64,000 bases of DNA from Liolophura sinensis (Eukaryota; Mollusca; Polyplacophora; Chitonida; Chitonidae): positions 33,821,979-33,885,978 of the forward strand of contig NC_088302.1 in the NCBI RefSeq assembly GCF_032854445.1, in the 5' to 3' direction. A model generated the notes under the pieces. That model was given only the letters and a program-made list of their open reading frames with translations. It made no database searches and was not told the DNA's origin. Below are positions 23,574 to 60,846 of this stretch, in pieces (position 1 is the first letter of the stretch; each line of letters begins with the position of its first letter). The position numbers and the translations under genes were made by a program.

Positions 23574-26500
23574 ATGTTTTGGGGTAAGATTTAGGTCCCG
23601 CATTCACCTGACGTAGCAGCCAGCATCAGTTTGGTATAGTTTTTGAAATGTGCCGTATACATTTTAGTGCCTGTGGTTAAATGCAGACGCTATTTTTAAG
23701 TAAGTGCTCGGAGTCGTCTTGCAACAACAACACACGTGGGGTGCCCACCACGTTGTCTGGTTTGTAGGTGTCACCGGAATGTGAATGATCGAGTTATGCA
23801 TCCTGGCAATTTGATGGTCAAGTTTGGGAATTTTAAATTTAAGATTGCTGTCACGTGGTAGATGGACGCCAATTCATTAAAGAACAAGCTTTTCACAATG
23901 AACATCGGAGAAGGGGCTCATTCATTGTCTGACATAAAAATCCACCTAGTCTTTACAACTGCCCCAGCCACATTAAGGTGCACTGTTTGCTTTCTCGGCC
24001 AAACAGACCACGTGATTCGCAAATTCCTGTTTACAGCAATGCTCCAATATTACAAATATCACGTGATAATGTGTGAAAAGCAGATAGTGCACATACATGT
24101 TGATCCAAGGCTACTGATAATATAGTTTAATTGAATTAAATGTTGAGGTCTATTTTCAACAATTTCTGTTATTTACTAGCCTTAACTTTTAATCATTGAA
24201 CTGAAAAGTCAAGTCGGTTGATAAGCATGCAACAGAATAAAGTTGGCCTTAAATGCACTCTAAAACTAGCCTTGGATGAGTATTCTGCGCTTCTGTATAT
24301 TTGTACTGACCAAGCGACAGTACAAATATGAAAGAGCAGAAAATAGTTATCCAGGGCTATCTAAAATGGCAGGACACGCCAATTTCTGGTGTGGATTGAA
24401 GAAAATAGAACCTTTATTGCCACCCCTGCAAACATAAATCCATGCCTGGACCACAAAGCAATTCTGAAATGACAAGTTTAGCAACAGTGGTTCACTCAGT
24501 GTGGCGGTACAGTAGTATGGAAAGATCTGTCAGCAACCTATTGATGGTCCTCAGTTCCCACGGACCCTGCCCAGTTTCCATCCATAATACTGAGCACATT
24601 TGTTTGTTATGAAAATGAATTATTTTTGAGTACAGTGTTAAAACATCAGGTAAATAACATAACTAATAGGAAGCACAACTTGTCCAGTCAGCCAAGCATA
24701 ATGGCCAAACTTCACTGACATGCGGTTTGCTCCAATCTTGCGGTCTTACTTATGATTTAGTTGTGGTCATATTTGTGACATTATGTTGGAATAAATCACA
24801 TACTGCCATGTTCAGACTTGGCTAAATAAAGCCTTCGCTTAAGCGGTGCAATTTTTAAAAAAAGTATTAATTTCAGGAGATTTTGTACACTTGGATCAAC
24901 AAAAATGTTTTTATGAGAAGGCCAGAATTTGAAGGCGAGACAATTTAATTTTCATTTATGGGTGAATCTGTAAGCAAAGTTCTTGAAGACTTGAAGTTGA
25001 CCCATTGTTGTGCATGTTCGTTGATAAGATCACCATTTACAAGGGTTGTACCGCTCCGTTCCAGGTGTGACAATAGATGGGGGAAAGCGGTACAGCCAGA
25101 CAGTGGAGAGGTCCTTCCATATCTCCATGGCTGCCTTGGAACCGAGTTCAGCTAAAGGTAAGATCGAGTCTGTTCATTGTAGTATGTCAGGCACATAGTA
25201 GGTCCTGACATTATAGCAGGGTTGAAATGTCGCCTGTCTGCCTAGCACCGACTTGTAAATCTTACAAGAGGGAAGTACAAACATTTTAATAGTAGTAGTA
25301 TCTACAATGTCGACAAGTCACTACAAGAGCAGTTGCAAATGTTAGCAGTTGGCTGTGAAGTTACCTCCCTTGATCGCACGTGCAGCGGTGAAGTGTAAGC
25401 TAGGTGACGTATACTGTCAGACCTGAAGAGGTTGTCGTAACCAATGTAAATTACAGGTAGCAAAACATGGGGCAGATTTTTAAAACTAACAGCCTTTCTG
25501 AACTTAATGCACTACATTTGATCAAGAATATAGCATGGTGGCAGAGTTTGTACGAGTCAGGAAGGCTAGTTGACATTCGTGTTCTGTTGTAGGATGTGTG
25601 TCCCTTATGATACAGCATGAAAAAGCCGAGTTTCTGTTGTGTACGCTTGACACCAAAAACATTTACCAACAGCCTCTGGATCTGAACTTTACTGAGGGAG
25701 AGGAAGTGACCTTTTTCTTGACAGGATCAGGTTTGAACACCATATTAAATAAGTGAACAATTTTTAATCAAAGCAATAAGCTCCAGTCAATCTATCAGTC
25801 CATGGATCAATTTTTGAAATTCAGTTATTCAGTTCAGCAGTTTTGGTGCATCATTGTACATCAGATTGAAAATTACATATTATAATATTCTTCAACCTAG
25901 CAGAGAGTTGATGGAAAGTGTTCTACAAATTTAATTTAAATAGTCCTCTAGGTTTTCACTGAGACTAAGAATTGGCTATTTACTAATATATGGAACTCTT
26001 CATTCATCATGCAAATTTGCTGTCTTCTTGGTTTTCAGGAATCATTCATTTAACAGGCTTTTTGGTGGAGGATGAAGAGGAAGGCATGGAGTATTCTCAT
26101 GACATGGACTCCTCAGATTATGACTCCTCTGATGAAGGTGTGAAGCCACATGTGTAATGAATGATTGAAGCCACATGTGTAATGAATGATTGAAGCCACA
26201 TGTGTAATGAATGATTGAAGCCACATGTGTAATGAATGATTGAAGCCACATGTGTAATGAATGATTGCAGAGATGTTTTAAGGTGTGATCAATCAGCTTT
26301 CAAGGGGCCCCCGTGGCTCATCTGGTTAGCGCACTAGCACAGCGTAATGACCCAGGAGTCTCTCACCAATGCGGTCGCTGTGAGTTCAAGTCTAGCTTAT
26401 GCTGGCTTCCTCTCGGGCCGTATCTGGCAGTAACCTGCGGATGGTCCTGGCTTTCCCCCAGGCTCTGACCAGTTTCCACCCACCATAATGCTGGCCACCG

Positions 26501-29500: not shown

Positions 29501-32500
29501 TCGGTGGCGACAGCACTTTGGCAGCATGGACTGCTCATCGTCATATGGCTGAAAAATTGTCAAGTATGACAAATAAACCCCAAGAATTCATTCATTCGCA
29601 AAATTGAACTTCTGTATGTGGCCGAATAAAGATTTTCAGTGTGTTACTGATAATCGAAAGAATCATTATGGAATTTTATTATATTTCATCTTACCATAAA
29701 CCTGACCTAAATTATGTAAGTGATAAGATAAAAAAGTCAATAAATATCTCTTTTCTGTTTGCTTTTGATAGTTATTGAGAATAGTACAGTTAAAATGATA
29801 TTTTTTAAGTATTTTTTGTAAGACCGCTCCAATTTAAATTGATGTTTTAAAGGCAGATCATATCTTTTTACAATGTCGTCAGACAAGTCTAGACAACAGA
29901 GATCGGGACATTTGCCATTTCACTGACGTCAACACTCTTATTCGCTCACACACAGCGGTGAAATCATTGTTGACGTAACATGGTACATGTAGTTCATACA
30001 AAACTCTTCTTCATAGCCTCATAAGTCCAAATTCAGGTTTTGTTGACATTATAATTCACAATTTGTATACGCTGTGCACACAGTAGTGTTGTGTTATATA
30101 CTTTAATTTCTGATTATCAGCCATGTTCATTTCCCGTACTTTTCCATGTTAGCTTTCACCTCGTCATGTGCTTGAGGCTGCCTTGTACGAGTGATGTGCT
30201 TAGATATCTGCAGTCTCCAGTCATAGCCAGTCAAACTTTGACCAGTGAGGTCAAGGCTGGAACCCAGTTTTGGACCAAGCATTATTTTATCTAGCCAGCG
30301 AGGGACAGTGGCCTACTTCACATAGTGATGACCGCCATCTTATATGTGAAATACCAGATTAACCACAGCCAGGTGCATTGTAAATAAATAAAACTTCCCA
30401 GAATTATGTTGTAATTGATGTTGTATGTTTTCCACAGATATAAAGCGTAAGCTGACCAACACTTATGATGCTGTGCCTGCGAAAAAGACGAAGAATCAGC
30501 AGTTTTTAGATGACAGTGACGATGACAGCTCAGACCCAGATGTGAGGCCAAATTAAAAACTTGAGCAGCAAAAATAATCAGATCATGCTCTTTCTAGCAT
30601 ATTGATTTCCAGAAAAAAAAAAGTGCTTTTGTCACTTTCCATTACCCCTTTTGGAGCATAGATTAATATGAATTTGGTGTTAATCACTTTAGTATTCATA
30701 TTCATTTTAATAATATGATAAATCTCATGGTAAGAGTGACAACTTGATCAGTCCGACTAGTCAAACTAGTGTTACACATATGACTTTCCTCTTTGGTTTC
30801 AGTATATGGATGAGAAAGAATCCGATGAAGATTCAGAAAGTGATGAGGAGGATGAAGGTACAATTTGATTAGTCTTCTAGTCCTGTAGTTTTCACTATCC
30901 CTTCTGATTTCCTGGAAATGTGTGTAATCTGTGTGGTGTGAAGTTTGTGGGTAAGACAGAGATAGTGTTAAACACTAGCGGAGAATATGCTTATATGCTA
31001 CATTTCATTTTATACTTGTGATGACGATGTGTACGTTTCGTGTCTGTAAAATTGCCAGTATATATGTTGGAAGGTATGCATAATGCATTTCCATGCTTTG
31101 TGGGAAGATAGTTAAGTTGTGTGAATTAACTAAGACTGGTGGAAAGAAACATGTAGATATACTATATGGGAATATAGACAAGACTTGTGTATTTCTGAGA
31201 CTGATGGGAAGATATTAAGCGATGTGCATTTCCAACACTGGTGGAAAGATACATGTTGACATTCCATGGGCATTTGTAAGACTGGAGGGAAGATATATAA
31301 GCCATGTGCATTTCCAACACTCGTGGAAAGATACATGTTGACATACCATGGGCATTTGTAAGACTGGAGGGAAGACATATAAGCCATGTGCATTTTCAAG
31401 ACTGGTGGAAAGATACATGTTGACATACCATGGGCATTTGTAAGACTGGAGGGAAGATAGATATGCCATGTGCGTTTTCAAGACTGGAGGGAAGATAGAT
31501 ATGCCATGTGCATTTCTAAGACTGGAGGGAAGATATATAAGCCATCTGTATTTTCAAGACTGGTGGAAAGATACATGTTGACATACCATGGGCATTTCTA
31601 AGACTGGAGGGAAGATATATAAGCCACGTGCATATCCAAGACTGGTGGGAAGATAGATAAGCCATGTGCATTTCTAAGACTGGAGGGAAGATATATAAGC
31701 CATGTGCATTTTCAAGACTGGTGGAAAGATACATGTTGACATACTATGGGCATTTCTAAGACTGGAGGGAAGATATATAAGCCATGTGCATATCCAAGAC
31801 TGGTGGGAAGATAGATATGCCATGTGTATATCCAAGACTGGTGGGAAGATAGATATGCCATGTGCATTTCTAAGACTGGAGGGAAGATATATAAGCCATC
31901 TGTATTTTCAAGACTGGTGGAAAGATACATGTTGACATACCATGGGCATTTCTAAGACTGGAGGGAAGATATATAAGCCACGTGCATATCCAAGACTGGT
32001 GAGAAGATAGATATGCCATGTGCATTTCTAAGACTGGAGGGAAGATATATAAGCCATGTGCATTTTCAAGACTGGTGGAAAGATACATGTTGACATACTA
32101 TGGGCATTTCTAAGACTGGAGGGAAGATATATAAGCCATGTGCATATCCAAGACTGGTGGGAAGATAGATATGCCATGTGCATTTCTAAGACTGGAGGGA
32201 AGATATACTAGCCGTGTGCATTTTCAAGACTGGTGGGAAGATAGATATGCTATGTGCATTTCTAAGACTGGAGGGAAGATATATAAGCCATGTGCATATC
32301 CAAGACTGGTGGGAAGATAGATATGCCATGTGCATTTCTAAGACTGGAGGGAAGATATATAAGCCATGTGCATATCCAAGACTGGTGGGAAGATATATAA
32401 GCCATGTGCATTTCTAAGACTGGAGGGAAGATATATAAGCCATGTGCATTTTCAAGACTGGTGGGAAGATATATAAGCCATGTGCATTTCCAAGACTGGT

Positions 32501-35500
32501 GAGAAGATAGATATGCCATGTGCATTTCCAAGGCTGATGGGAAGATAGATATGCCATGTGCATTTCCAAGACTGGAGGGAAGATAGATATGCCATGTGCA
32601 TTTCCAAGGCTGATGGGAAGATAGATATGCCATGTGCGTTTCCAAGACTGGTGGGAAGATAGATAAGCCATGTGCATTTCCAAGACTGGTGGGAAGATAT
32701 ATAAGCCATGTGCATTTTCAAGACTGGTGGGAAGATAGATATGCCAAGTGCATTTCCAAGACTGGTGGGAAGATATATTAGCCATGTGCATTTTCAAGAC
32801 TGGTGGGAAGATAGATATGCTATGTGCATTTCCAAGACTGGAGGGAAGATATATAAGCCATGTGCATTTCCAAGGCTGATGGGAAGATAGATATGCCATG
32901 TGCATTTCCAAGACTGGTGAGAAGATAGATATGCCATGTGCATTTCCAAGGCTGATGGGAAGATAGATATGCCATGTGCATTTCCAAGACTGATGAGAAG
33001 ATAGATATGCCATGTGCATTTCCAAGACTGGAGGGAAGATAGATAAGCCATGTGCATTTCCAAGGCTGATGGGAAGATAGATATGCCATGTGCGTTTCCA
33101 AGACTGGTGGGAAGATAGATAAGCCATGTGCATTTCCAAGACTGGTGGGAAGATATATAAGCCATGTGCATTTTCAAGACTGGTGGGAAGATAGATATGC
33201 CAAGTGCATTTCCAAGACTGGTGGGAAGATATATTAGCCATGTGCATTTTCAAGACTGGTGGGAAGATAGATATGCTATGTGCATTTCCAAGACTGGTGG
33301 GAAGATATATAAGCCATGTGCATTTCCAAGGCTGATGGGAAGATAGATATGCCATGTGCATTTCCAAGACTGGTGAGAAGATAGATATGTCATGTGCATT
33401 TCCAAGGCTGATGGAAAGATAGATATGCCATGTGCATTTCCAAGACTGATGAGAAGATAGATATGCCATGTGCATTTCCAAGACTGGTGGGAAGATAGAT
33501 ATGCCATGTGCATTTCCAAGGCTGATGGGAAGATAGATATGCTATGTGCATTTCCAAGACTGGTGAGAAGATAGATATGCCATGTGCATTTCCAAGACTG
33601 GAGGAAAGATAGATAAGCCATGTGCATTTCTAAGACTGGTGGGAAGATATATAAGCCATGTGCATTTTCAAGACTGGTGGGAAGATAGATATGCCATGTG
33701 CATTTCCAAGGCTGATGGGAAGATAGATATGCTATGTGCATTTCCAAGACTGGAGGGAAGATAGATATGCCATGTGCATTTCCAAGGCTGATGGGAAGAT
33801 AGATATGCTATGTGCATTTCCAAGACTGGTGAGAAGATAGATATGCCATGTGCATTTCCAAGACTGGAGGGAAGATAGATAAGCCATGTGCATTTCTAAG
33901 ACTGGTGGGAAGATATATAAGCCATGTGCATTTTCAAGACTGGTGGGAAGATAGATATGCCATGTGCATTTCCAAGACTGGTGAGAAGATAGATATGCCA
34001 TGTGCATTTCCAAGACTGGAGGGAAGATATATAAGCCATGTACATTTTCAAGACTGGTGGGAAGATAGATATGCCATGTGCATTTCCAAAACTGATGGGA
34101 AGATAGATATGCTATGTGCGTTTCCAAGACTGGTGGGAAGATATATAAGCCATGTGCATTTTCAAGACTGGTGGGAAGATAGATATGCCATGTGCATTTC
34201 CAAGACGGGAGGGAAGATAGATAAGCCATGTGCATTTCCAAGACTGGTGAGAAGATAGATATGCCATGTGCATTTCCAAGACTGATGGGAAGATAGATAT
34301 GCTATGTGCGTTTCCAAGACTGGTGGGAAGATATATAAGCCATGTGCATTTTCAAGACTGGTGGGAAGATAGATATGCCATGTGCATTTCCAAGACGGGA
34401 GGGAAGATAGATAAGCCATGTGCATTTCCAAGACTGGTGAGAAGATAGATATGCCATGTGCATTTCCAAGGCTGATGGGAAGATAGATATGCCATGTGCA
34501 TTTCCAAGACTGGAGGGAAGATAGATAAGCCATGTGCATTTCCAAGGCTAATGGGAAGATAGATATGCCATGTGCATTTTCAAGACTGGTGAGAAGATAG
34601 AAATGCCATGTGCATTTCCAAGGCTAATGGGAAGATAGATATGCCATGTGCATTTCCAAGACTGGAGGGAAGATATATAAGCCATGTGCATTTCCAAGAC
34701 TGGAGGGAAGATAGATATGCCATGTGCATTTCCAACACTGGTGGGAAGATCAGCAATGTGCGTTTCCAAGAAAGGTGAGAATATGGACAAGGCATGTGCA
34801 TTTCTAGGATAAGTAGGAAGATAATATGCCATGTACATTTCCAACTCTGGTGGGAAGAAAGGCAAGGCATGTGCATTTCCATGAGTGGTAGGATGATAGA
34901 CAAGGCTTGTGCATTTCCAAGACTGGTGGGAAGAAAGGCAAGGCATGTGCATTTCCAAGAGTGGTAGGATGATAGACAAGGCTTGTGCATTTCCAAGAAT
35001 GGTGGGAAGATAGACCAGACATGTGCATTTAACACATTAGCAGAAAAATATGCCCTGCACTTGACCCTGTGGCTAGATATGTATATACATAAATTTTCAC
35101 TCATATGTAGGACTAGTTCATGTGACCTGTTCTATATTTAACAGATGACATCCCAGCTGGGTGGGAGGAAGAGGATGACGATGATGATGACGATGAAGAT
35201 GATGATGACGATGAAGAAGAAGAAGAAAGAAAAACTCCAACCTCCGCAAAACAAAAGTCCAATAAGGTCACAAAACATGACAAACAGAAACAAACACCCA
35301 AAAACATGTCCAAAGTCAGCACTCCAAAATCGGCAGCATCAGCCTCAAAGGTTTGTTCTAAACAATGAGACTGATTTCTTTTAACAATTCAGTTTGGTAA
35401 TTGGTTTTTGTGCTATAACTACTTCGAATGTTATCCGATTTTCATAAAATTTTGTCTGCTGATTCAATTTGTGCCTCTTCACATGTGGACACCTTGCTTT

Positions 35501-46571: not shown

Positions 46572-47498
46572 CTAAACTCTCCTTGTTCTGGAGAAAGTTC
46601 GTCGTTTCCAATCTGAGCAACAGGTAACAAAGCCTTGTCGAATGGGTCTGTTGCCCAGACCGTAGATCAACGGATTGAGACCAGAATTCAGAAAGGCCAA
46701 GAAGCTAAACACCTTGAAGATTTTGTAATCTCGCAGTTCACCAGTATCGGTGCACAGCGTTGATAGGCTGATACTCAGGGGTAGATAAGAGATGGTGAAG
46801 ACACCTGCCGTCATGAACATCAGAAACGCCACCTTAACCTGACTCCGTATTATCTTAGCCCGATGACCATTTTCGGACGTTGTCGTCATCGTCTGGCTTG
46901 CCACACGCCGCACCTGTTTTATGGCAACACGGAAAATCCTCACGTATAAGACGACGGCTAAGCCGTAAAACACGACCACGCCGGCTGATAGGAAATACAG
47001 AACAGAACAAGGCGTAACGAGATCCAAAGAACAGACAAAATTGGTAGAGTTCTCCGTGTTTCTCTCGATTTTGTGCCAAACTGTTCCTGCAATGCTAAAT
47101 CCCAGAAGAGGTGATACCCAACAAAGGACGACCGCAAGTACGAGATTGCGGCGGGAGAGAATAACGAAGTGCCGAAGAGGGTACATGATGGTTACATATC
47201 TTTCCAAGGCTACGACTGTCATGTGCAGAACGGAGACACAAGGAAATGCCAGAAGAACAACGACGATGAAAGTGCATTCATTGATTTTCCCGGGATCTAG
47301 CTTTTTGGGATTCAAAAGGCCGGCCATAAACGTGGACGAAAAACATCCGACACACATGTCACTGAGTGAGAGAGAGACGAGAAGCCAGTTCGTTGCAGTC
47401 CGGAGAGACCTGTTGGCCAGGATGACGGCGATGAAGCAGGAATTAGTCCAAGATGTTAACACACCGAGCAGAAGGAAAAAAACAGATTGAAGATGCAT
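46572..47498 (-). CDS. Rhodopsin-family (class A) G-protein-coupled receptor, intronless
   Basis: A single exon encodes 308 aa from the first ATG at 47498; an in-frame stop lies just upstream at 47531-47529. Seven hydrophobic helices are visible. Helix 1 has the conserved Asn (SWTNSCFIAVI), helix 2 LSLSD, helix 3 a Cys and the ERY form of the DRY motif, helix 4 the Trp (VLCWVSPLLG), loop 2 a Cys (STNFVCSLD) and helix 7 NPLIYGLGN. Helix 6 reads FTISYLP, so Tyr replaces the usual Trp of the CWxP switch, and helix 5 lacks its Pro. The missing helix 5 Pro recalls melanocortin, EDG and cannabinoid receptors, but the ligand cannot be named. The C-tail is short with CC at its start, a likely palmitoylation site. 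A truncated duplicate lies directly downstream. Confidence 0.9.
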   Translation of the reverse strand: MHLQSVFFLLLGVLTSWTNSCFIAVILANRSLRTATNWLLVSLSLSDMCVGCFSSTFMAGLLNPKKLDPGKINECTFIVVVLLAFPCVSVLHMTVVALERYVTIMYPLRHFVILSRRNLVLAVVLCWVSPLLGFSIAGTVWHKIERNTENSTNFVCSLDLVTPCSVLYFLSAGVVVFYGLAVVLYVRIFRVAIKQVRRVASQTMTTTSENGHRAKIIRSQVKVAFLMFMTAGVFTISYLPLSISLSTLCTDTGELRDYKIFKVFSFLAFLNSGLNPLIYGLGNRPIRQGFVTCCSDWKRRTFSRTRRV

Positions 47499-48554
47499 CC
47501 TCGCGAAAGGCTCAGATTTCTCAGTCAATTATAATGTTTTACAAGACTTATTAGCAGCCGCATGTATTCTCAGTTCAGTGTCAGTTTCACTGGAAGCATA
47601 ATTGGGATTTCGACCCATTGATCAATCGTAATGGCTATCCACATGGATTGTGTACTCAGTGATAAGCTTCCTTGGTTGCTACAGTGAATGTACAAAAAAC
47701 CTCCTCCATTAGCTGGACAAGATAAGGCCACATAATCGTGGACCAAGACAGGATGGTATGGTTGTAGGGGGACTCGTGTATTTACCAGAATCTGCAGTCT
47801 TCAGCTGCTGAGGCCACTTATCTCTTGCCGAAATACCGAAATTTTGATATATATATCATTGTTCGTGAAGTTCTAAAGACTGCGAAAGTATCCAGCTGCA
47901 TCATAAGGAGTTAATCGAGACTAGAATAGGTTCCTTTGTGGTAAAAAATCCTACATAGGCCTATACAGTAGTTCCACAAGCATGCTTTGTCAAGATGCTT
48001 TCAACAAGAGTGCTGATTTGCAAGCATGGTTAAACGCTCTGAAAATAGTTTTATGTATAGGATAACGTTGTCTAATTGTTGAAAACTAATTTTGAAATTG
48101 GCCATGAGTAAAAACCTGTATTCCTAAAGAGCATCCGCAGCAATGTTGCCGTGAATTAACGTCTGGTTCACTCATGTATCTAAATTCACTTTACCAAGTC
48201 AGATCTGGTAGCTGCTCCCACAATAGTGACACATCCCCAGCTGTATACAGATTCCCAATCCAGTCTCTTGCGATGACCAGTGGCGACTTATCCTTAATCC
48301 ATGTACATGTACAATCACAATCGTCCTTATAGATACATAAATAAAAGAGCCCATTTCACGTCCCAAAATAAGGAAGCAAGAGTTTGACTGACGGTACAGA
48401 CAGAGAGTAAGTGTTGTATAAATTTTAGCTGACAAAAAATCAGGCTTCTAGAGCCGACTTCTATGAGATTGGTTCACACCCTCCATTTCCTTATCATTCA
48501 ACTTCGCCAAGCATTCTCGGTGATATTCTCATTTGGAATTGATCACAAGTAGAT

Positions 48555-51916: not shown

Positions 51917-54900
51917 ATGGAGGACCTAACAGCGGCTCTTGCCACAAGCTTTCACGTGACTTACGAACCAAACACCACAGCAGCCCAACATCCAAGATTT
52001 GCAGAATACAAGAAGAAAAGTGATAAGCACAGCCAGGATGAAAGACGAAGGAGATACCTTGATCTTCAAAAAAAGTGAGTTCATTGCTTCATGGCATGTA
52101 GTTTCATCTGATTCGATGAAGAAACAAGCTACATCTGTTGCTCATCAAATTTTCTGCTTGGCGTGTAGACTGTGTTCTGAGAGGATGTACTAGTATGATG
52201 TGTAGCCTGTTTTAAGTTAATATTTATATGAGTGAAAGAATGAAAACCCATTTTGCTCATATTTCTTAGTTTGATTATCTTGTTGTGATGAATTTCCTGG
52301 AAAAATTCTACAGTATACATGTAGGCTGTGCTTGTGTTTCTATCCAATACTTTTCCTTGTATATGTACGTTTTATAATTATAAAGACAGTATAATTTGTC
52401 ATTAGAAGGATTAATATTGCTTTATGTGATGTGAATGTGTCACCGGTGGTTAAAATTTCAGGAGAAGATTTGATTGCAATGCATTGGTTAGAAATCTGTC
52501 AGTTGGATCATGGGATAGTCAGCATCACAAGATTTCAGACAGAGATGAGGAGGACATGGAGTATGATGTGGTGTTGCGAAAACCAGGAAGATATTATAAA
52601 AATCAGGTAATACATCACATGAGAGAAACAGGAAACCTGTCGCATCAATCAAACCCTATGCTTGTCAGAATATATGTCAAAAAGGCCGTACGTGGGAAGG
52701 TCTTTCAGCAACCTGCGGATGGTTGTGGGTTTCCATGGGGCTCTGCCCGGTTTTCTCTCACCATAATGTTGGAAACTGTCGTATAAGTGAAATATTCTTG
52801 AGTACGGCGAAAACACCAATCAAATAAATAAATAAATAAATATGGCGAAAAGGCAATAGAGAATTCCTGTAACATTAGAGTGGAGCAGGTACGTTCTTTG
52901 GTAATAGAAATAACTCACTTCTGATTGATCTAAACTTATATCATGGTGGAGGTTTTGATTTTTTTGATGAACACATGTCTGCTTACTTTGAACTGTGATA
53001 TCTTCGTTATGTAACATCACAATAAATGTGTACCAAGTAGACAGATAGAAATCAAAAGGGGTGAACTGGGCTAGTCTCAGACAGCTTCCTTAAGAAAAAA
53101 GAAAAAAAAAAAATAGGTTACATATTTTGGAGCAGGGCGCAGCTCCTGTCTGAAAAAAGCCTAGCTAGGTGTATGGTTGTTGTTCCTACAGATGATTCAC
53201 AATCATCACTCTTTTGTTCAGAAGTCTGGAGAAATTAATTTGGCTAATTGCTGTTGTGAAATTAGTCAATTATACAAAGTTGCAAGTTGAAGCATTGTAG
53301 CAAACTACATTCCATTTCAGACATGCATCACATTTTTTTCGTCGCAAAGTTTAATTAAACTGTTGCGAGATCTCATAGTATACAGGGTCTGGGTGCTAGT
53401 TTTCATTTGAGGGCCCATAACTTAGCATGCTTACTTTACATTGCAAATCTTGTTCCTGTCCACATGAACTTAAACAATCGAGAAATTGAAAGTTCCATGA
53501 TTAAACTGATACTTTTAAATCTTTGTCATTTTACTAGCCGTTGAAAATGTCAAACTTTAAAAGCTGATTGGTGCTGATTGACCACAGCTGCTCTGTCATG
53601 TCAAGTTGTGGCGAATGCAATAGCGTTTTAATGATGTGAAATGCGAATGTGGTTTATTACATTAAGGACAATACTGTGTTTGCCTCCACAGCTGATGTTT
53701 TCAGAGTGGCTAGTCGAGGTGCCAGATGACTTTGAGAAGGAATGGACAATGGTCATCTGTCCTACAGGGAAGCGGTCTCTCATCGTTGCGTCACAGGTAG
53801 TACCTATGCAATACATTATTATGTTACAGATTCTTACAGCAGTACATGTTTTTTTTTTTTTTTGGTTTTTTTTTTACCTTAAAGCTTACTCTTTGATGAC
53901 GTCTTGATGCCTTGTTTTACCTTAAAAGCTTACTCCTTGATGATGTCTTGATGCCTTGTTTTACCTTAAAAGCTTACTCCTTGATGATGTCTTGATACCT
54001 TGTTTTACCTTAAAAGTTTACTCCTTGATGATGTCTTGATGCCTTGTTTTACCTTAAAAGTTTACTCCTTGATGATGTATTGACACATTTTATGGGCTTA
54101 TCCTACATTTAAACATTTTTCTGCAATACTTGTAAACTTTTAAGAGTTAACATAGAATCACCAAGTTTGTGTATATAATGTAATTAGTAAGGTGTAACAA
54201 AATGTAATATAAATACCCTGGAGTGTAATTATTGGAGTTGTATCTTGTTCCAAATAGTATATGAGCATAGGCTGATCAATGAGTTTTTGCAGGTTCAAAA
54301 GGTATAGATTTTAAGGGATAAAGGATGAACACTGATTGGATGACAGTGAAGATACTGTGTTAATGTATCGCACTCAGGCTCCACTTGAGTGGACACAGAA
54401 TAAATCCACAGCATGTAAGATTCTGTTTAGCTTAGGTTTGCCTCCTTTTATAAAGAGCAGCCAATCATTGGCTAATTTGTATCCCTTTTAATTTTGTGTC
54501 TGTTGGCTAATTTGTATCCCTTTTAATTGTGTGTCTGTTGGCTAATTTGTATCCCTTTAATTGTGTTCCATCATTTGTCATTCTACATTTGTCATCTTGC
54601 AGAACTCCACATCAGCCTATGCCAAGAATGGTTTTAAGATGAACACATTCCAGTCCCTTCTACCAGGAGGCAATAGAAATTACAGAAGTAAAATGGGTGG
54701 TGAGTTTAATAGTGTTAACTTTGTTAAAGCTGCTATGGTATTCTGAGTGTGAAATTCTCTGTCTTGAGATAAGAGAAGCTTATTACAGCTAAACTCAATG
54801 CTATTCTGTGATATGTTAGCCTGAATAGTCCTTTGTTGATCATAACCTCATCCTGTGAGGAAAAATAGGGTACATCAGGAGGAATTTATTATTTATTATT

Positions 54901-57900
54901 AGTTATTATTTCAACTAATAAAAGAGATATGGATGTTAAAAAAAAAAAAGAACAGTGAGCAAAACAAAAGAGTATCCTCTTCTTTGAATGTCAGTCAGGT
55001 TGAAACATGTACTTCTGTGCTAGGCACTTGGATCTGGTTGCAGTAAACTGTGATGGGAAGGACACCATATGTGTGACACCATAACCACATCAGAATGGCA
55101 TTCCAGTGAGGCAGCACTACAGATACGTTTTAAAGTGATGTTAAAATCCAAGCAGTTAAACAAACATTCAAATCATATTCCTTTTAATCCTTATTAATCA
55201 AAATCAACCGACATGTGTATTGTTTAGAATGAGCAGTCTTGTGAATTGTTTCTTCCCTTTTTTCATGATCTTATTGTTTTATCTCATTTGTTGAAATTCA
55301 AAATTCCTTAAAGTACATGCAGATGTGATCATGCTTCTTAAGAAAAAGACTATCGTCTGTCATTGATACCATATACATGTATGTCATCTGCTACATTACA
55401 TTGGAAATTGAGTGCTCTAACATAAATCAGTCATGACGAAGCATTCTTCAATACATGTAACCACAAACCATCACTAGTATACACGTGAGGTGGGGGTTCA
55501 AACCTGGCCTTAAACATGGAATTTGTACTGTTCATAGGGCTTTGGTGACAGAATTAACAGGTCAGTAATGCTTATGTGGCTGTGTTCATTTAAAGATAAA
55601 TTGTCTTCCAACAGTGTCTACATATGGTGTGCATATTTGTATATCATTTTGTGGGAGAGTTCACCAGTAACTCTCTAAAGGTAGCTGGTTTTCCTCAGGC
55701 TCTCCAGTTTCCTATAAAACTCAATGCCATTGTATCAGTGAAAAACTCATGAGTATGGCATTTAAACAACAGTTAAATTAAGTAAACAAACAAATAACCA
55801 GGCCAGAAGTAGCTAGCTCTGAAATGATGTCACTGGCTTCTGCTTGTCTACTGTGACATATATATGTAACCAGAAGTCCATTACCCAGAAGTATGCAACT
55901 TCCCTATAGCTAGTCTGCATTTGGAACCTACCATGCATCATCCGTTTCTCAAACATTTGATGCGCAATAGAGAGAAAAAAAAATACATGGCTGCGCATAT
56001 ACGTCACGTAATGTGTTATAGATTGAAGAAAAGTGTAAAGTGCCGTGGAGACTAGCTATACTCATGCTACCGTATCACAGTGACTCACCAGTGCGATTGC
56101 TGTGGGTCCAGCCCATGCTGGCTTCCTCTTCGGTTGTATGTGGGAAGGTGTGTCACCAACCTGTGAGTGGATATGCCCACTTTCATCCCACCATAATATT
56201 AGGTGAAACAGTCTTGAGTATGGCATTAAATACTGGTCAGATAAATAGATACATGTAACACTCATCTGTATGTAGTTGATGGAATTTCATTGTAGAACAT
56301 GCAGACTGAACAATTCCGATGACTGCACTATCATGTTGTAGACTGCACTATTATGTTGTAGGCTGCACTGTCATGTTGTAGACTGCACTGCCATATTGTA
56401 GACCACACTATCATGTTGTAGTCTGCACTATCATGTTGTAGACTGCACGGTCATGTTGTAGACTGCCCTGTCATGTTGTAGACTGCACTATCATGTTGTA
56501 GTCTGCACTGTAATGTTGTAGACTGCACTGTCATGTTGTAGTCTGCACTATCATGTTGTAGACAGCACTGTCATGTTGCAGACTGCACTATCATGTTGTA
56601 GACTGCACTATCATGTTGTAGTCTGGACTATCATGTTGTGGACTGGACTATCATGTTGTAGACTGCACGGTCATGTTGTAGACTGCACGGTCATGTTGTA
56701 GACTGTACTGCCATGTTGTAGACTGCACTGTCATGTTGTAGTCTGCACGGTCATGTTGTGGACTGCACTGTCATGTTGTGGACTGCACTGTCATGTTGTA
56801 GTCTGCAGGGTCATGTTGTAGACTGTACTGCCATGTTGTAGACTGCTTTGTCATGTTGTAGACTGCCCTGTCATGTTGTAAACTGCACTGTCATGTTGTA
56901 GTCTGCACTGTCATGTTGTAGACTGCACGGTCATGTTGTAGACTGTGCTGCCATGTTGTAGACTGCTTTGTGATGTTGTAGACTGCCCTGTCATGTTGTA
57001 GACTGCACTGTCATGTTGTAGACTGCTTTGTGATGTTGTAGACTGCCCTGTCATGTTGTAGACTGCACTGTCATGCTGTAGACTGCACTGTCATGTTGTA
57101 GACTGCCCTGCCATGTTGTTGTCTGCACTGTCATGTTGTGGACTGCACTGTCATGTTGTAGACTGCACTGTCATGTTGTAGGCTGCACTGTCATATTGTA
57201 GACTGCACTGTCGTGTTGTAGACTGCACTGTCGTGTTGTAGACTGCACTGTCGTGTTGTAGAGTGCACTATCATGTTGTAGACTGGACTATCATGTTGTA
57301 GACTGCACTATCATGTTGTAGGCTGCACTATCATGTTGTAGACTGCCCTGTCATGTTGCAGACTGCACTATCATGGACTGTATCCTGGATGAAGCTAACA
57401 AGACCTACTTTGTCCTGGACCTGATGTACTGGAAGCAGCACCCCCTGTATGAGAGTGAGGTACATGTAGATACAGCACATTAAAACCTGTAACACTGTAT
57501 GAAAGTGGGGTAAATACAGCACATTGAAACCTGTCACACTGTACGAGAGTGAGGTAGATACAGCACATTAAAACCTGTCACACTGTATGAGAATGAGGTA
57601 AATACAGCACATTAAAACCTGTAACACTGTATGAAAGTGGGGTAAATACAGCACATTAAAACCTGTCACACTGTTTGAGAGTGAGGTAAATACAGCACAT
57701 TGAAACCTGTCACACTGTTTGAGAGTGAGGTGGGTACAGCACATTGAAACCTGTCACACTGTATGAGAGTGAGGTGGATACAGCACATTGAAAAACATCC
57801 ACTCTGAAAGAAAGTGAGGAGAGTAAAGCACATTAAAATCATGCACACTATGAAAATAAGGTAGATACAGCACATTAAAACCATTCACACTGTATGAAAG

Positions 57901-60846
57901 TAAGGTAGATATAGCACATTAAAACCATTTACACTGTATGAAAGTGAGGAGAGTAAAGCACATTAAAATCATGCACACTGTATTAAAATGAGGTAGACAC
58001 AGCACATTAAAACCATTCACACTATGAAAATAAGGTAGATACAGCACATTAAAACCATTCACACTGTACGAGAGTGAGGTAGATACAGCACATTAAAACC
58101 TGTCACACTGTATGAGAATGAGGTAAATACAGCACATTAAAACCTGTAACACTGTATGAAAGTGGGGTAAATACAGCACATTAAAACCTGTCACACTGTT
58201 TGAGAGTGAGGTAAATACAGCACATTGAAACCTGTCACACTGTTTGAGAGTGAGGTGGGTACAGCACATTGAAACCTGTCACACTGTATGAGAGTGAGGT
58301 GGATACAGCACATTGAAAAACATCCACTCTGAAAGAAAGTGAGGAGAGTAAAGCACATTAAAATCATGCACACTATGAAAATAAGGTAGATACAGCACAT
58401 TAAAACCATTCACACTGTATGAAAGTAAGGTAGATATAGCACATTAAAACCATTTACACTGTATGAAAGTGAGGAGAGTAAAGCACATTAAAATCATGCA
58501 CACTGTATTAAAATGAGGTAGACACAGCACATTAAAACCATTCACACTATGAAAATAAGGTAGATACAGCACATTAAAACCATTCACACTGTATGAAAGT
58601 AAGGTAGATATAGCAAATTAAAACCATTTACACTGTATGAAAGTGAGGAGAGTAAAGCACATTAAAACCATTCATACTGTATGAAAATAAGGTAGCTACA
58701 GCACATTAAAACCATTCATACTGTATGAAAATAAGGTACATACAGCACATTAAAACCATTCACACTGTATGAAAGTGAGGTAGATACAGCACATTAAAAC
58801 CATTCACACTGTATGAAAGTAAGGTAGCTACAGCACATTAAAACCATTCATACTGTATGAAAATAAGGTAGCCGCCATCGTATAGGTGAAATATCCTTGA
58901 GTACGGCATACAACACAAATTAAATAAATAAATAAATTTACCTTTGTGATGTCTGCATTAACAATCCAAACTCAAATTGAAAAGTACAAGTGTTTACTGG
59001 TAATGTCAGAATTTCAAGGTTTGGACTAAATTAAAGATCAGAAGAATAGTATCAAAAGCTGATCGTGTGAAAGTTTTTTTTATCTATGAAGTCATTTTTC
59101 ATGGCTCTTTCATGTACACTTTACATGTACAGAAGTTTCAGGTGGCTTGATTGTCTGTTACCTTGGTGAGGGACTGTGTTGTTGCTGTTTGCCAAACTTG
59201 GTGAATTTTGCTGTTTGTAGCGTTTGTAGTGATTACTGTTGTTACGGTGATTAATTACTTTTCTTTGCAGACAGAATTCCGCTTCTACTGGTTGAGTACA
59301 AAATTCTCAGAGCATCCAGAGATTGGATGCTTTTCTAAATTAAATCCGGTTTGTATTTTTTTCACATTTATTTAACAAACATGAATAAGATAAATATAAA
59401 ATGTTTTAATACTTCTGCCAGCTTAATTGCGATGATATTGCCGAAATTCATTCATTCTTTAAGTTGGGTGAGCAAGTGTGACACACTCCAGCTTGTTTCA
59501 ATGGTGTCTGGATGGTGCTTTAGGTCAGAAAATTTGTATATTTGCAGTGTATTGGTTTCCTTCACTTGTATTAAAGCCAGACTGCCATCCTGTAAATGAA
59601 ATACTCTTCAAAATGCCATTTATTTATTACCATTTAAACAAAATCACAAAATCTGTCAACTGGGCCCAAGTCGACAAAGTCAACCTATGTGTAACACTTA
59701 TTTCATTGCCGTAAGACACATCATGTGTGATACATTGAGCACGTATTTATAAAGATTTTGTCTCTTTAACAGCACAAGATGGAATAAGAAATTTTTGCCG
59801 GCTTGTTCCTCCTTCAATATTTATTTTGGAAACAATGGTGCATTGTTACCTGCTACAGTTAGTGATTATTTTTCTCTTGCTCTTATTTCACCACCACAGT
59901 ACAAGTTCTTACCCCTGCCCTCTTTTCCCTGTAACAAGGAAGTTATTCCTTCAGCTCTGTCAGCAGCTCAGTTTCCGGTGAGTTCTCCCCTTCAACTGTC
60001 CAAATCCTGTTCTTTTTCAGTGTGTCTTATTTGTTTGATTCTACCAGTTGTCATGTTTATACTGCTTTAGTATTGTATCTGGCTCTACATAAATGTTTTT
60101 GGATGACATAATATCTAAATATCCATACTGCAGTTGCAGAGTTTTATTTGTCTCACTCTATCAGTTGCCATGTTTTATATTATATTATTTATTATCATAA
60201 TTATTATAATATCATTAACAAAGGTCTTGTGATTTCTGTATTATGTTTGCTATAAATATTATGTGTACACACATTTGTATGGTTTCAGATTGATGGATTA
60301 CTGTTTTACCACAAGAGAACACACTACACATTCGGTGCAACTCCGCTGGTAGTCTGGCTCAAACCGTACATGCTACCCGAGATACTGAACATTCACGAGC
60401 CAGCTCATCTTCTGAGCCAGGCACCAGCCGGATATTCTAACTACGCTAAACACATGGAGAAGGAAAAAGAGAAAGAGCCGTATGGCCCGTACTACGGGAG
60501 AAAGCGCAAAGGGAAGCGCAAGGGAAAACAAGAAGGCATGGAGGTGGGTCAAAGCGATTCCGCAGACATGTCACTGAGCACGGTCTCGGGAGACTCTCCC
60601 AACACGTCGATAAACATGGATCATGGAGCTGCTGGGGACTTAGCCATGGAGCAGGAGAGTTCAAAACTGGAACAAGACTGTTCAAAACCGGAACAAGACT
60701 TTTGTACACTGGAACAAGAGAATTCCAATCAAGAACAAAATAGTTCCAAACCTGACAATGTAAACTCAGAAGGTTTGGAGCAGAATTCTGAACAGACTGA
60801 AGAAGAGAGCATGATGTCCACAAAAATCACAAGGGATGTTTCTTAA
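51917..60846 (+). CDS. SNUPN: Snurportin-1 (m3G-cap-specific snRNP import adaptor), 8 exons, complete
   Basis: Exons: 51917-52074, 52462-52606, 53692-53796, 54603-54699, 57362-57459, 59271-59348, 59900-59977, 60289-60846. Phases agree throughout; the product is 438 aa. The start ([12 protein letters not shown]) lies in a good context, AAAGATGG. Residues 1 to about 65 form the importin-beta-binding segment with a basic patch ([12 protein letters not shown]). The cap-binding domain follows: SEWLVEVP carries Trp107, and [11 protein letters not shown] carries Trp276, the same numbers as the two cap-stacking Trp residues of human snurportin-1. STSAYAKNG and SLLPGGNR are also conserved. The protein binds trimethylguanosine-capped snRNAs in the cytoplasm and brings them to importin-beta. 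The tail (about 305-438) is longer than in vertebrates, with a Lys/Arg-Gly patch and Glu-Gln-Ser repeats. A poly(A) signal lies at 61113-61118. Confidence 0.97.
52680..52842 (+). mobile_element. Family C SINE, 3' part, snurportin intron 2
   Basis: Begins 'ggccgtacgtgggaaggtc', then 'caacctgcggatggttgtgg', 'ggctctgcccggttttc', 'gtcgtataagtgaaatattc' and 'caatcaaataaataaataaa'. It lies about 75 bp after exon 2. Confidence 0.8.
53876..54090. repeat. 44-bp tandem repeat, snurportin intron 3
   Basis: About five units with core TACCTTAAAAGCTTACTCCT then tgatgatgtcttgatgccttg. It begins about 80 bp after the exon 3 donor, right after a T-rich run. Confidence 0.9.
54470..54566. repeat. 35-bp tandem repeat, three units, snurportin intron 3
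   Basis: Units of GGCTAATTTGTATCCCTTTT then aattgtgtgtctgtt. The array ends about 36 bp before the exon 4 acceptor and supplies a pyrimidine-rich stretch near it. Confidence 0.88.
55490..55790 (+). mobile_element. Family D SINE, snurportin intron 4
   Basis: B-box-like 'gggttcaaacctggcc', then 'aacatggaatttgtact', 'ggagagttcaccagtaac', 'gtagctggttttcctcagg' and the tail 'atggcatttaaacaacagtt'. The tail matches the element split at 42540-42890. Confidence 0.6.
56050..56255 (+). mobile_element. Family C SINE, diverged, snurportin intron 4
   Basis: 'cagtgactcaccagtgcgat', 'gctgtgggtccagcccatgc', 'gtatgtgggaaggtgtgtc' and 'cagtcttgagtatggcatta' follow family order, with the tail 'ggtcagataaatagata'. 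It ends about 65 bp before the 20-bp minisatellite. Confidence 0.7.
56321..57360. repeat. 20-bp minisatellite, 52 units, abutting the snurportin exon 5 acceptor
   Basis: Consensus GACTGCACTATCATGTTGTA. All 52 units keep exactly 20 bp with no insertion or deletion over 1040 bp. The 53rd, partial unit (57361 onward, GACTGCACTATCATG) is the last base of the intron plus the first 14 coding bases of exon 5. Most units carry TTGTAG at the position matching the real TTGCAG acceptor; only units 13 and 52 have CAG. Confidence 0.97.
57445..58870. repeat. About 44-bp minisatellite, about 32 units, starting at the snurportin exon 5 donor
   Basis: Unit core: ACTGTATGAGAGTGAGGTAG then atacagcacattaaaacc. 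The first 15 bases after the leading A match the last 15 coding bases of exon 5 followed by its GT donor. Units vary between 40 and 46 bp. A 525-bp block is duplicated almost exactly (about 57541 onward and 58066 onward). The array ends directly in a SINE fragment. Confidence 0.95.
58870..58938 (+). mobile_element. Family C SINE tail at the end of the 44-bp array
   Basis: 'gtagccgccatcgtataggt', 'gaaatatccttgagtacgg' and 'ttaaataaataaataaa' form the last 69 bp of the family. It joins the array with no gap. Confidence 0.8.

Follow-up and report, generated by a model that had tools for sequence, protein, structure and literature searches.

Splice-junction minisatellites on both sides of exon 5 in a chiton snurportin-1 gene

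Exon 5 of the snurportin-1 gene (SNUPN) of the chiton Liolophura sinensis lies between two minisatellites whose units repeat its own splice junctions, the donor junction downstream in a 44-bp unit and the acceptor junction upstream in an unrelated 20-bp unit. We consider it probable (roughly 0.8) that the 44-bp minisatellite consists of copies of the exon 5 donor junction, which likely arose through recurring slippage or unequal exchange and are likely tolerated since only the exon-adjacent junction must work. The gene is located in a stretch of 64,000 nucleotides that was analysed as a whole and is called the window in the following (C8:33821979-33885978 of an assembly of 609,464,459 bp in 632 contigs); positions given without a contig refer to this window.

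Two junction arrays at exon 5 of SNUPN

The eight exons of the gene model (Table 1) encode a protein of 438 amino acids that is identical (100%, full length) to the deposited 'snurportin-1-like' protein of L. sinensis. Snurportin-1 chains in the PDB match this protein with an E-value of 1e-98 and Pfam assigns an m3G-cap-binding domain to it, and on these sequence matches the host gene of the arrays is identified as SNUPN. Since the predicted and the deposited protein are identical, both junctions of exon 5 are consistent with the deposited model, which uses the exon-proximal splice sites. Exon 5 was found at a single location in the assembly, which represents one assembled haplotype.

Table 1 Positions of the features of the SNUPN locus in the window and of the junction arrays found in a survey of motor-protein genes.
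Feature	Position	Strand	Description
SNUPN coding region	51917..60846	+	Exons 51917-52074, 52462-52606, 53692-53796, 54603-54699, 57362-57459, 59271-59348, 59900-59977, 60289-60846
SNUPN exon 5	57362..57459	+	98 nt, arrays on both sides; phase 1 in, phase 0 out; edge residues conserved in orthologues
Acceptor-junction array	56322..57361	+	52 full 20-bp units, each 14 exon bases plus TTGTAG; final unit ends with the authentic acceptor (57361)
Initial 14 bases of exon 5, ACTGCACTATCATG	57362..57375	+	Carry the left array on in register
Terminal 15 bases of exon 5, CTGTATGAGAGTGAG	57445..57459	+	Sequence from which the exonic portion of the 44-bp units derives (unit alignment and null comparisons)
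Start of intron 5, GTACAT, authentic donor	57460..57465	+	Six bases found in the exon-proximal copy only
Donor-junction array	57466..58871	+	32 full units (42, 44 or 45 bp; consensus 44) to 58867, plus a 4-nt remnant
535-bp block, first copy in donor array	57534..58068	+	Zero mismatches to the second copy
535-bp block, second copy	58059..58593	+	Offset of 525 bp, i.e. 12 units
Surveyed donor junction arrays	C12:686729, C12:684214, C11:2675303, C8:10565028, C11:27412983		
Surveyed acceptor junction arrays	C2:5378501, C8:682171, C9:4628084, C1:95580461		

In the right array, Tandem Repeats Finder (TRF) detected a 44-bp period at 57466-58871 with 32.1 copies and 86% matches. Each unit is composed of 29 intron columns followed by 15 exon-derived columns, and the dinucleotide after the unit is GT in 27 of the 32 units and GA in the remaining 5. 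A previous reading of the sequence alone (the sequence-only reading) had described an array built from the 5' splice junction that starts immediately after the exon and repeats the last 15 exon bases, the GT and the following intron. Alignment of the units bears out this derivation and, in general, the composition of the units, but the array starts 6 nt downstream of the exon and the GT is present in many units rather than in all. The array contains a perfect duplication of 535 bp, which therefore points to recent growth by a step of 12 units.

On the left, where the same reading had described copies of the acceptor junction, the array was confirmed by alignment of its full units; TRF reported a 20-bp period at 56321-57375 with 52.8 copies. 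An AG ends 46 of the 52 units, and in two of these, one being the authentic site, it is part of a CAG.

The exon homology of the units was assessed with the first and last units dropped. In the register of the junction, right units 2-31 had a mean identity of 0.862 to the end of the exon and the left units of 0.870 to its start, compared to means of 0.26 (right) and 0.24 (left) and maxima of 0.62 and 0.65 for other k-mers of the SNUPN coding sequence. When any register was allowed, the maxima rose to 0.80 and 0.81, both belonging to the same exon edges shifted by 1-2 bases, and the observed identity was reached by 0/1,204 (right, 15-mers) and 0/1,212 (left) of the other coding k-mers. A similarity no better than that to other coding sequence, which the sequence-only reading had named as its own refutation, was thus found on neither side. 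A purely intronic array that merely adjoins the exon is ruled out by the exon homology of the interior units. Farther into the exon than base -15, agreement of the right units with the exon is patchy, the majority base matching only at -17, -19, -24, -26 and -27 of the next 14 positions.

With regard to the direction of copying, an alignment of 14 animal snurportins showed that T171, encoded by the left seed, is nearly invariant and that Y198, encoded by the right seed, is invariant, with little or no variation at the nearby residues D174, C175, P196 and T202. Since the bases that were copied specify residues conserved among distantly related animals, we regard the exon as the source and the array as the copy. 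The consensus units of the two arrays reached a local alignment score of 6, which was matched by 26% of shuffled sequences (7 against the reverse complement). A shared origin of the 44-bp and the 20-bp units is ruled out by this shuffle-level similarity, in agreement with the earlier description of the units as unrelated. Since the unit sequences are unrelated, the donor and acceptor arrays arose separately.

Junction arrays at other exon edges of the genome

The frequency of such arrays was estimated at exons of motor-protein genes located by Pfam, which gave at least 81 myosin head, at least 132 kinesin motor and at least 86 dynein DHC_N2 matches. We used 158 of the 299 matches, namely 90 with loci of their own and 68 assigned to those loci by position, and thereby covered 153 exons with 304 predicted edges in 245,021 bp of analysed DNA. 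The edges were predicted with splice-site frequencies rather than taken from annotation, the loci are biased towards high-scoring exons, the first 60 loci were scanned before the exon table was entered, and some Pfam matches contain stops where the profile crossed an intron. For each edge, an 18-mer of 10 exon and 8 intron bases was searched in the flanking DNA (at most 1,500 bp), allowing no more than 4 mismatches, and an edge with at least 3 copies was called positive.

Ten of the 304 edges were positive, compared to 0/304 windows in exon interiors and 0/1,520 shuffled edges. One positive (L061) was a false call, its edge having been mis-set within an intronic array, so that 9/304 remain; by eye, these nine are junction arrays (Table 1). 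Their exon part is short, about 8-10 bases, at C11:2675303, C2:5378501 and C9:4628084, and the two arrays on C12, about 2.3 kb apart, apparently belong to the same myosin gene. Arrays near exons that, by eye, were not counted as junction arrays were seen at L011, L025 (both sides), L033, L048, L061, L088, C1:4562919 and C1:95581759. At L050 (C11:27413087-27414650), a donor array of a kinesin gene repeats a 73-bp unit, about 54 bases of which come from the exon, in at least 21.6 copies and reaches the end of the analysed DNA.

These results suggest that exon edges likely seed junction arrays often in this genome. At a rate of 9/304, the fraction of two-sided exons expected from independent events is about 0.0009, which makes them rare for a given gene but recurrent across the genome. 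Not one of the 153 surveyed exons had arrays on both sides (0.13 expected), a result that is compatible with the rate under independence but cannot confirm it. Since junction arrays occur at 9/304 of the surveyed edges, the two arrays on SNUPN exon 5 need no special cause, and the view of the sequence-only reading that their presence on one exon is hard to ascribe to chance is not upheld.

Both arrays could nevertheless have a shared cause in a local mutational hotspot, for example if breaks at exon edges are coupled to transcription or splicing. Among 49 arrays detected by TRF in the surveyed DNA, eight straddle an edge by eye, compared to 2.9 expected under uniform seeding (P = 0.007); for this calculation, seven periods longer than 120 bp were capped at that length, and the ninth junction array (C8:10565028) is absent from the 49. 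The density of array ends was 0.52 per kb (15 ends) between -45 and +50 bp relative to predicted edges, 0.26 per kb (8 ends) at 50-150 bp and 0.17 per kb (38 ends) beyond 150 bp. This roughly threefold excess near edges marks the surroundings of exons and not the junction base itself, because arrays lying just inside the intron are included along with those that overlap the edge. Given also the small sample, the use of predicted edges and the lack of two-sided exons among the 153, we regard a hotspot as an unlikely shared cause of the two SNUPN arrays. Somewhat more readily, though still with considerable doubt, we would entertain the wider proposal that exon edges are genuine hotspots for minisatellite birth in this chiton, with seeding coupled to transcription or splicing, about 3% of junctions carrying arrays of decoy sites, and the same process at work independently in chitons and in amphioxus, whose arrays are compared below.

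We also considered that the arrays, or the 535-bp block, might be produced by the assembler. The mismatch-free block could be a mis-joined repeat, and the coverage of the assembly is just 14x. Yet the assembly, published under the name L. japonica, is described as made from PacBio HiFi reads with a mean length of 8,347 bp (PMC11068029), which exceeds exon 5 plus both arrays (about 2.55 kb), many sequence variants exist among the units, and other loci show the same anatomy. We therefore give almost no credence to an artefact. The L. japonica of that genome was later renamed L. sinensis (PMC12441733).

Splice-site choice and origin of the arrays

According to our predictions, exon 5 spliced from any of the 27 copied GTs, each taken alone, leads to a stop at codon 209, and the use of any of 45 copied AGs, again alone, to a stop within codons 175-215. 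The final exon junction of SNUPN is at codon 253, and an early stop ahead of the last junction directs a transcript to nonsense-mediated decay. Transcripts using copied sites are predicted targets of this pathway because their stops precede the last junction.

In the mechanism that we favour, slippage or unequal exchange would recur at exon edges and thereby multiply the junction sequence. Under selection, the junction next to the exon would be retained, while the copies in the intron would drift and expand outwards from the exon. Splicing would rely on the exon-proximal sites, since replacing one of them by any single copy is predicted to introduce a premature stop. The two arrays on exon 5 would then represent two independent events of one common process.

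Several observations weigh against this explanation. A decay gradient of exon similarity away from the exon was tested by rank correlation and not found on either side (Spearman -0.25, P = 0.17 on the right; -0.06, P = 0.67 on the left). The exon- and intron-derived columns of the right array were equally variable (0.34 vs 0.33 bits), and the exon-derived columns of the left array were more variable (0.46 bits) than the intron-derived ones (0.17 bits). The pairing energy with the 5' end of U1 was -5.7 kcal/mol for the authentic donor. All but one of the 27 GT copies pair more strongly, two of them, at the ends of units 6 and 18, reaching -11.4 kcal/mol. This stronger pairing of the copies does not fit easily with silent, decayed relics. 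Finally, it is from the letters of the DNA that we infer slippage, tolerance and splice choice. Among the five surveyed donor arrays, four hold no found copy stronger than the authentic donor, so that SNUPN is an exception in this respect; in the fifth, 4/15 copies are stronger. On this view, the position next to the exon and the exon context would outweigh the strength of the site.

The strong copies, taken together with the early stop after each single alternative site tested and the retention of AG and GT in most units, would also suit an array of functional decoys that compete with the authentic sites. Snurportin imports spliceosomal small nuclear ribonucleoproteins (snRNPs), and decoys of this kind would lower SNUPN expression through the stops, possibly in response to the snRNP level. 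However, the columns of the splice dinucleotides are conserved (0.84-1.0) about like the remaining columns (means 0.90 and 0.92), giving no clear signal in column conservation of selection that keeps or loses these dinucleotides, and similar arrays occur in motor-protein genes without an evident link to snRNPs. We hold functional decoys to be highly improbable, and a regulatory role of the arrays, though conceivable, is unsupported.

Other repeats of the locus and comparison with known systems

The introns of SNUPN hold four arrays, namely the two at exon 5 and two in intron 3 (53872-54083, 44 bp x 4.8; 54468-54566, 35 bp x 2.9), the latter without exon bases by eye. Exon 8 contains a coding repeat with a 21-bp unit (60659-60719) in a Glu/Gln-rich tail that aligns poorly to orthologues. 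Among the snurportin relatives, six proteins of 620-764 amino acids (P0002-P0007) carry an additional PF01331 annotation, and those with names are from bivalves; in P0002 (Sinanodonta woodiana), a diverged second copy of the cap-binding domain is found in tandem.

The longest TRF array of the window has a 38-bp unit in about 100 copies (31167-35030), and a Pfam scan of ten reading frames near it recognised no exon. A 25-bp array at 26141-26267, with 5.1 copies and 100% matches, is probably a very recent expansion. Exons of neighbouring genes were sought near the other arrays of the window in 20 reading frames (most from a list of 112); none of these reached a Pfam family cut-off, so that no exons for comparison with the arrays emerged. 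The motif CTTGAGTAYGGC has 12 matches with at most one mismatch, compared to 0.34 expected, and is in places followed by AAAT runs. One copy (58896-58907) is located 25 bp past the right array and one (56213-56224) about 97 bp ahead of the left array; the motif appears to belong to a dispersed SINE-like repeat (SINE, short interspersed element). Rfam had zero matches within the window, which also contains an uninterrupted frame for a rhodopsin-like G protein-coupled receptor on the minus strand (46572-47528, 318 amino acids; 7tm_1, E 1.2e-32).

The arrays of SNUPN resemble the amphioxus 'mirages', tandem duplicates of exon-intron boundaries that are described for Adh3 and the globins BflGb6 and BflGb9 (PMC3087553) and for PGBD5 in a paper that also cites troponin C (PMC3902484). 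Mirage units measure 10-72 bp in Adh3 and 150-160 bp in the globins (PMC3087553), and AG or GT is kept in many but not all of them (PMC3087553; PMC3902484). All four anatomical features that we compared fit: the SNUPN units span the boundary with exon bases, splice site and intron, their lengths of 44 and 20 bp are inside the published range, their splice dinucleotides are likewise kept in many but not all units, and either boundary can be duplicated, both being so at the same exon of SNUPN. On their anatomy in the sequence, the arrays thus belong with the mirages. They differ in that the host is a mollusc instead of a cephalochordate, in that one exon has arrays of unrelated units at both its boundaries, and in size, BflGb6 having 6 and 3 units in its two haplotypes compared to 32 and 52 in SNUPN. 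Splicing fidelity and somatic instability are reported for amphioxus, whereas the SNUPN arrays are known from the sequence of one assembly.

The mollusc host, the two arrays on one exon and the estimate of frequency are new. No mollusc mirage was recognised among the literature matches listed, which is weak evidence of absence as subscription papers are mostly outside the coverage of the search; the accessible part of a paper on amphioxus huntingtin mentions tandem repeats but no junction arrays (PMC2206037).

Other tandem repeats are less similar. Ordinary intronic minisatellites, of which the survey yielded 49 arrays per 245 kb, have units without exon bases by eye. Genes in human segmental duplications contain minisatellites with units of about 30 bp, some at an exon-intron boundary and possibly giving novel introns, but these average 4 copies and 160 bp and are presented as lengthened exons or introns of recent paralogues, not as long junction arrays beside an exon that is used once (PMC2812944). 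In the Rogers model, as discussed in PMC3087553, introns are gained when AG/GT proto-splice sites are duplicated in tandem. Duplicated junctions are the raw material for new introns in this model, and SNUPN shares them, but it has eight exons with exon 5 used once and no new intron within former exon sequence, its protein aligning through exon 5 with orthologues apart from a length difference of 1-2 residues just before it.

In the literature covered here, mirages come from a handful of amphioxus genes, and a rate of about 3% of sampled edges in a mollusc makes them a feature that lends itself to counting across the genome. This opens the questions of whether tandem duplication starts preferentially at splice junctions and of how the spliceosome selects one among dozens of near-identical sites. 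SNUPN exon 5 offers a sharp test case, with most of its donor copies predicted to out-pair the donor itself with U1.
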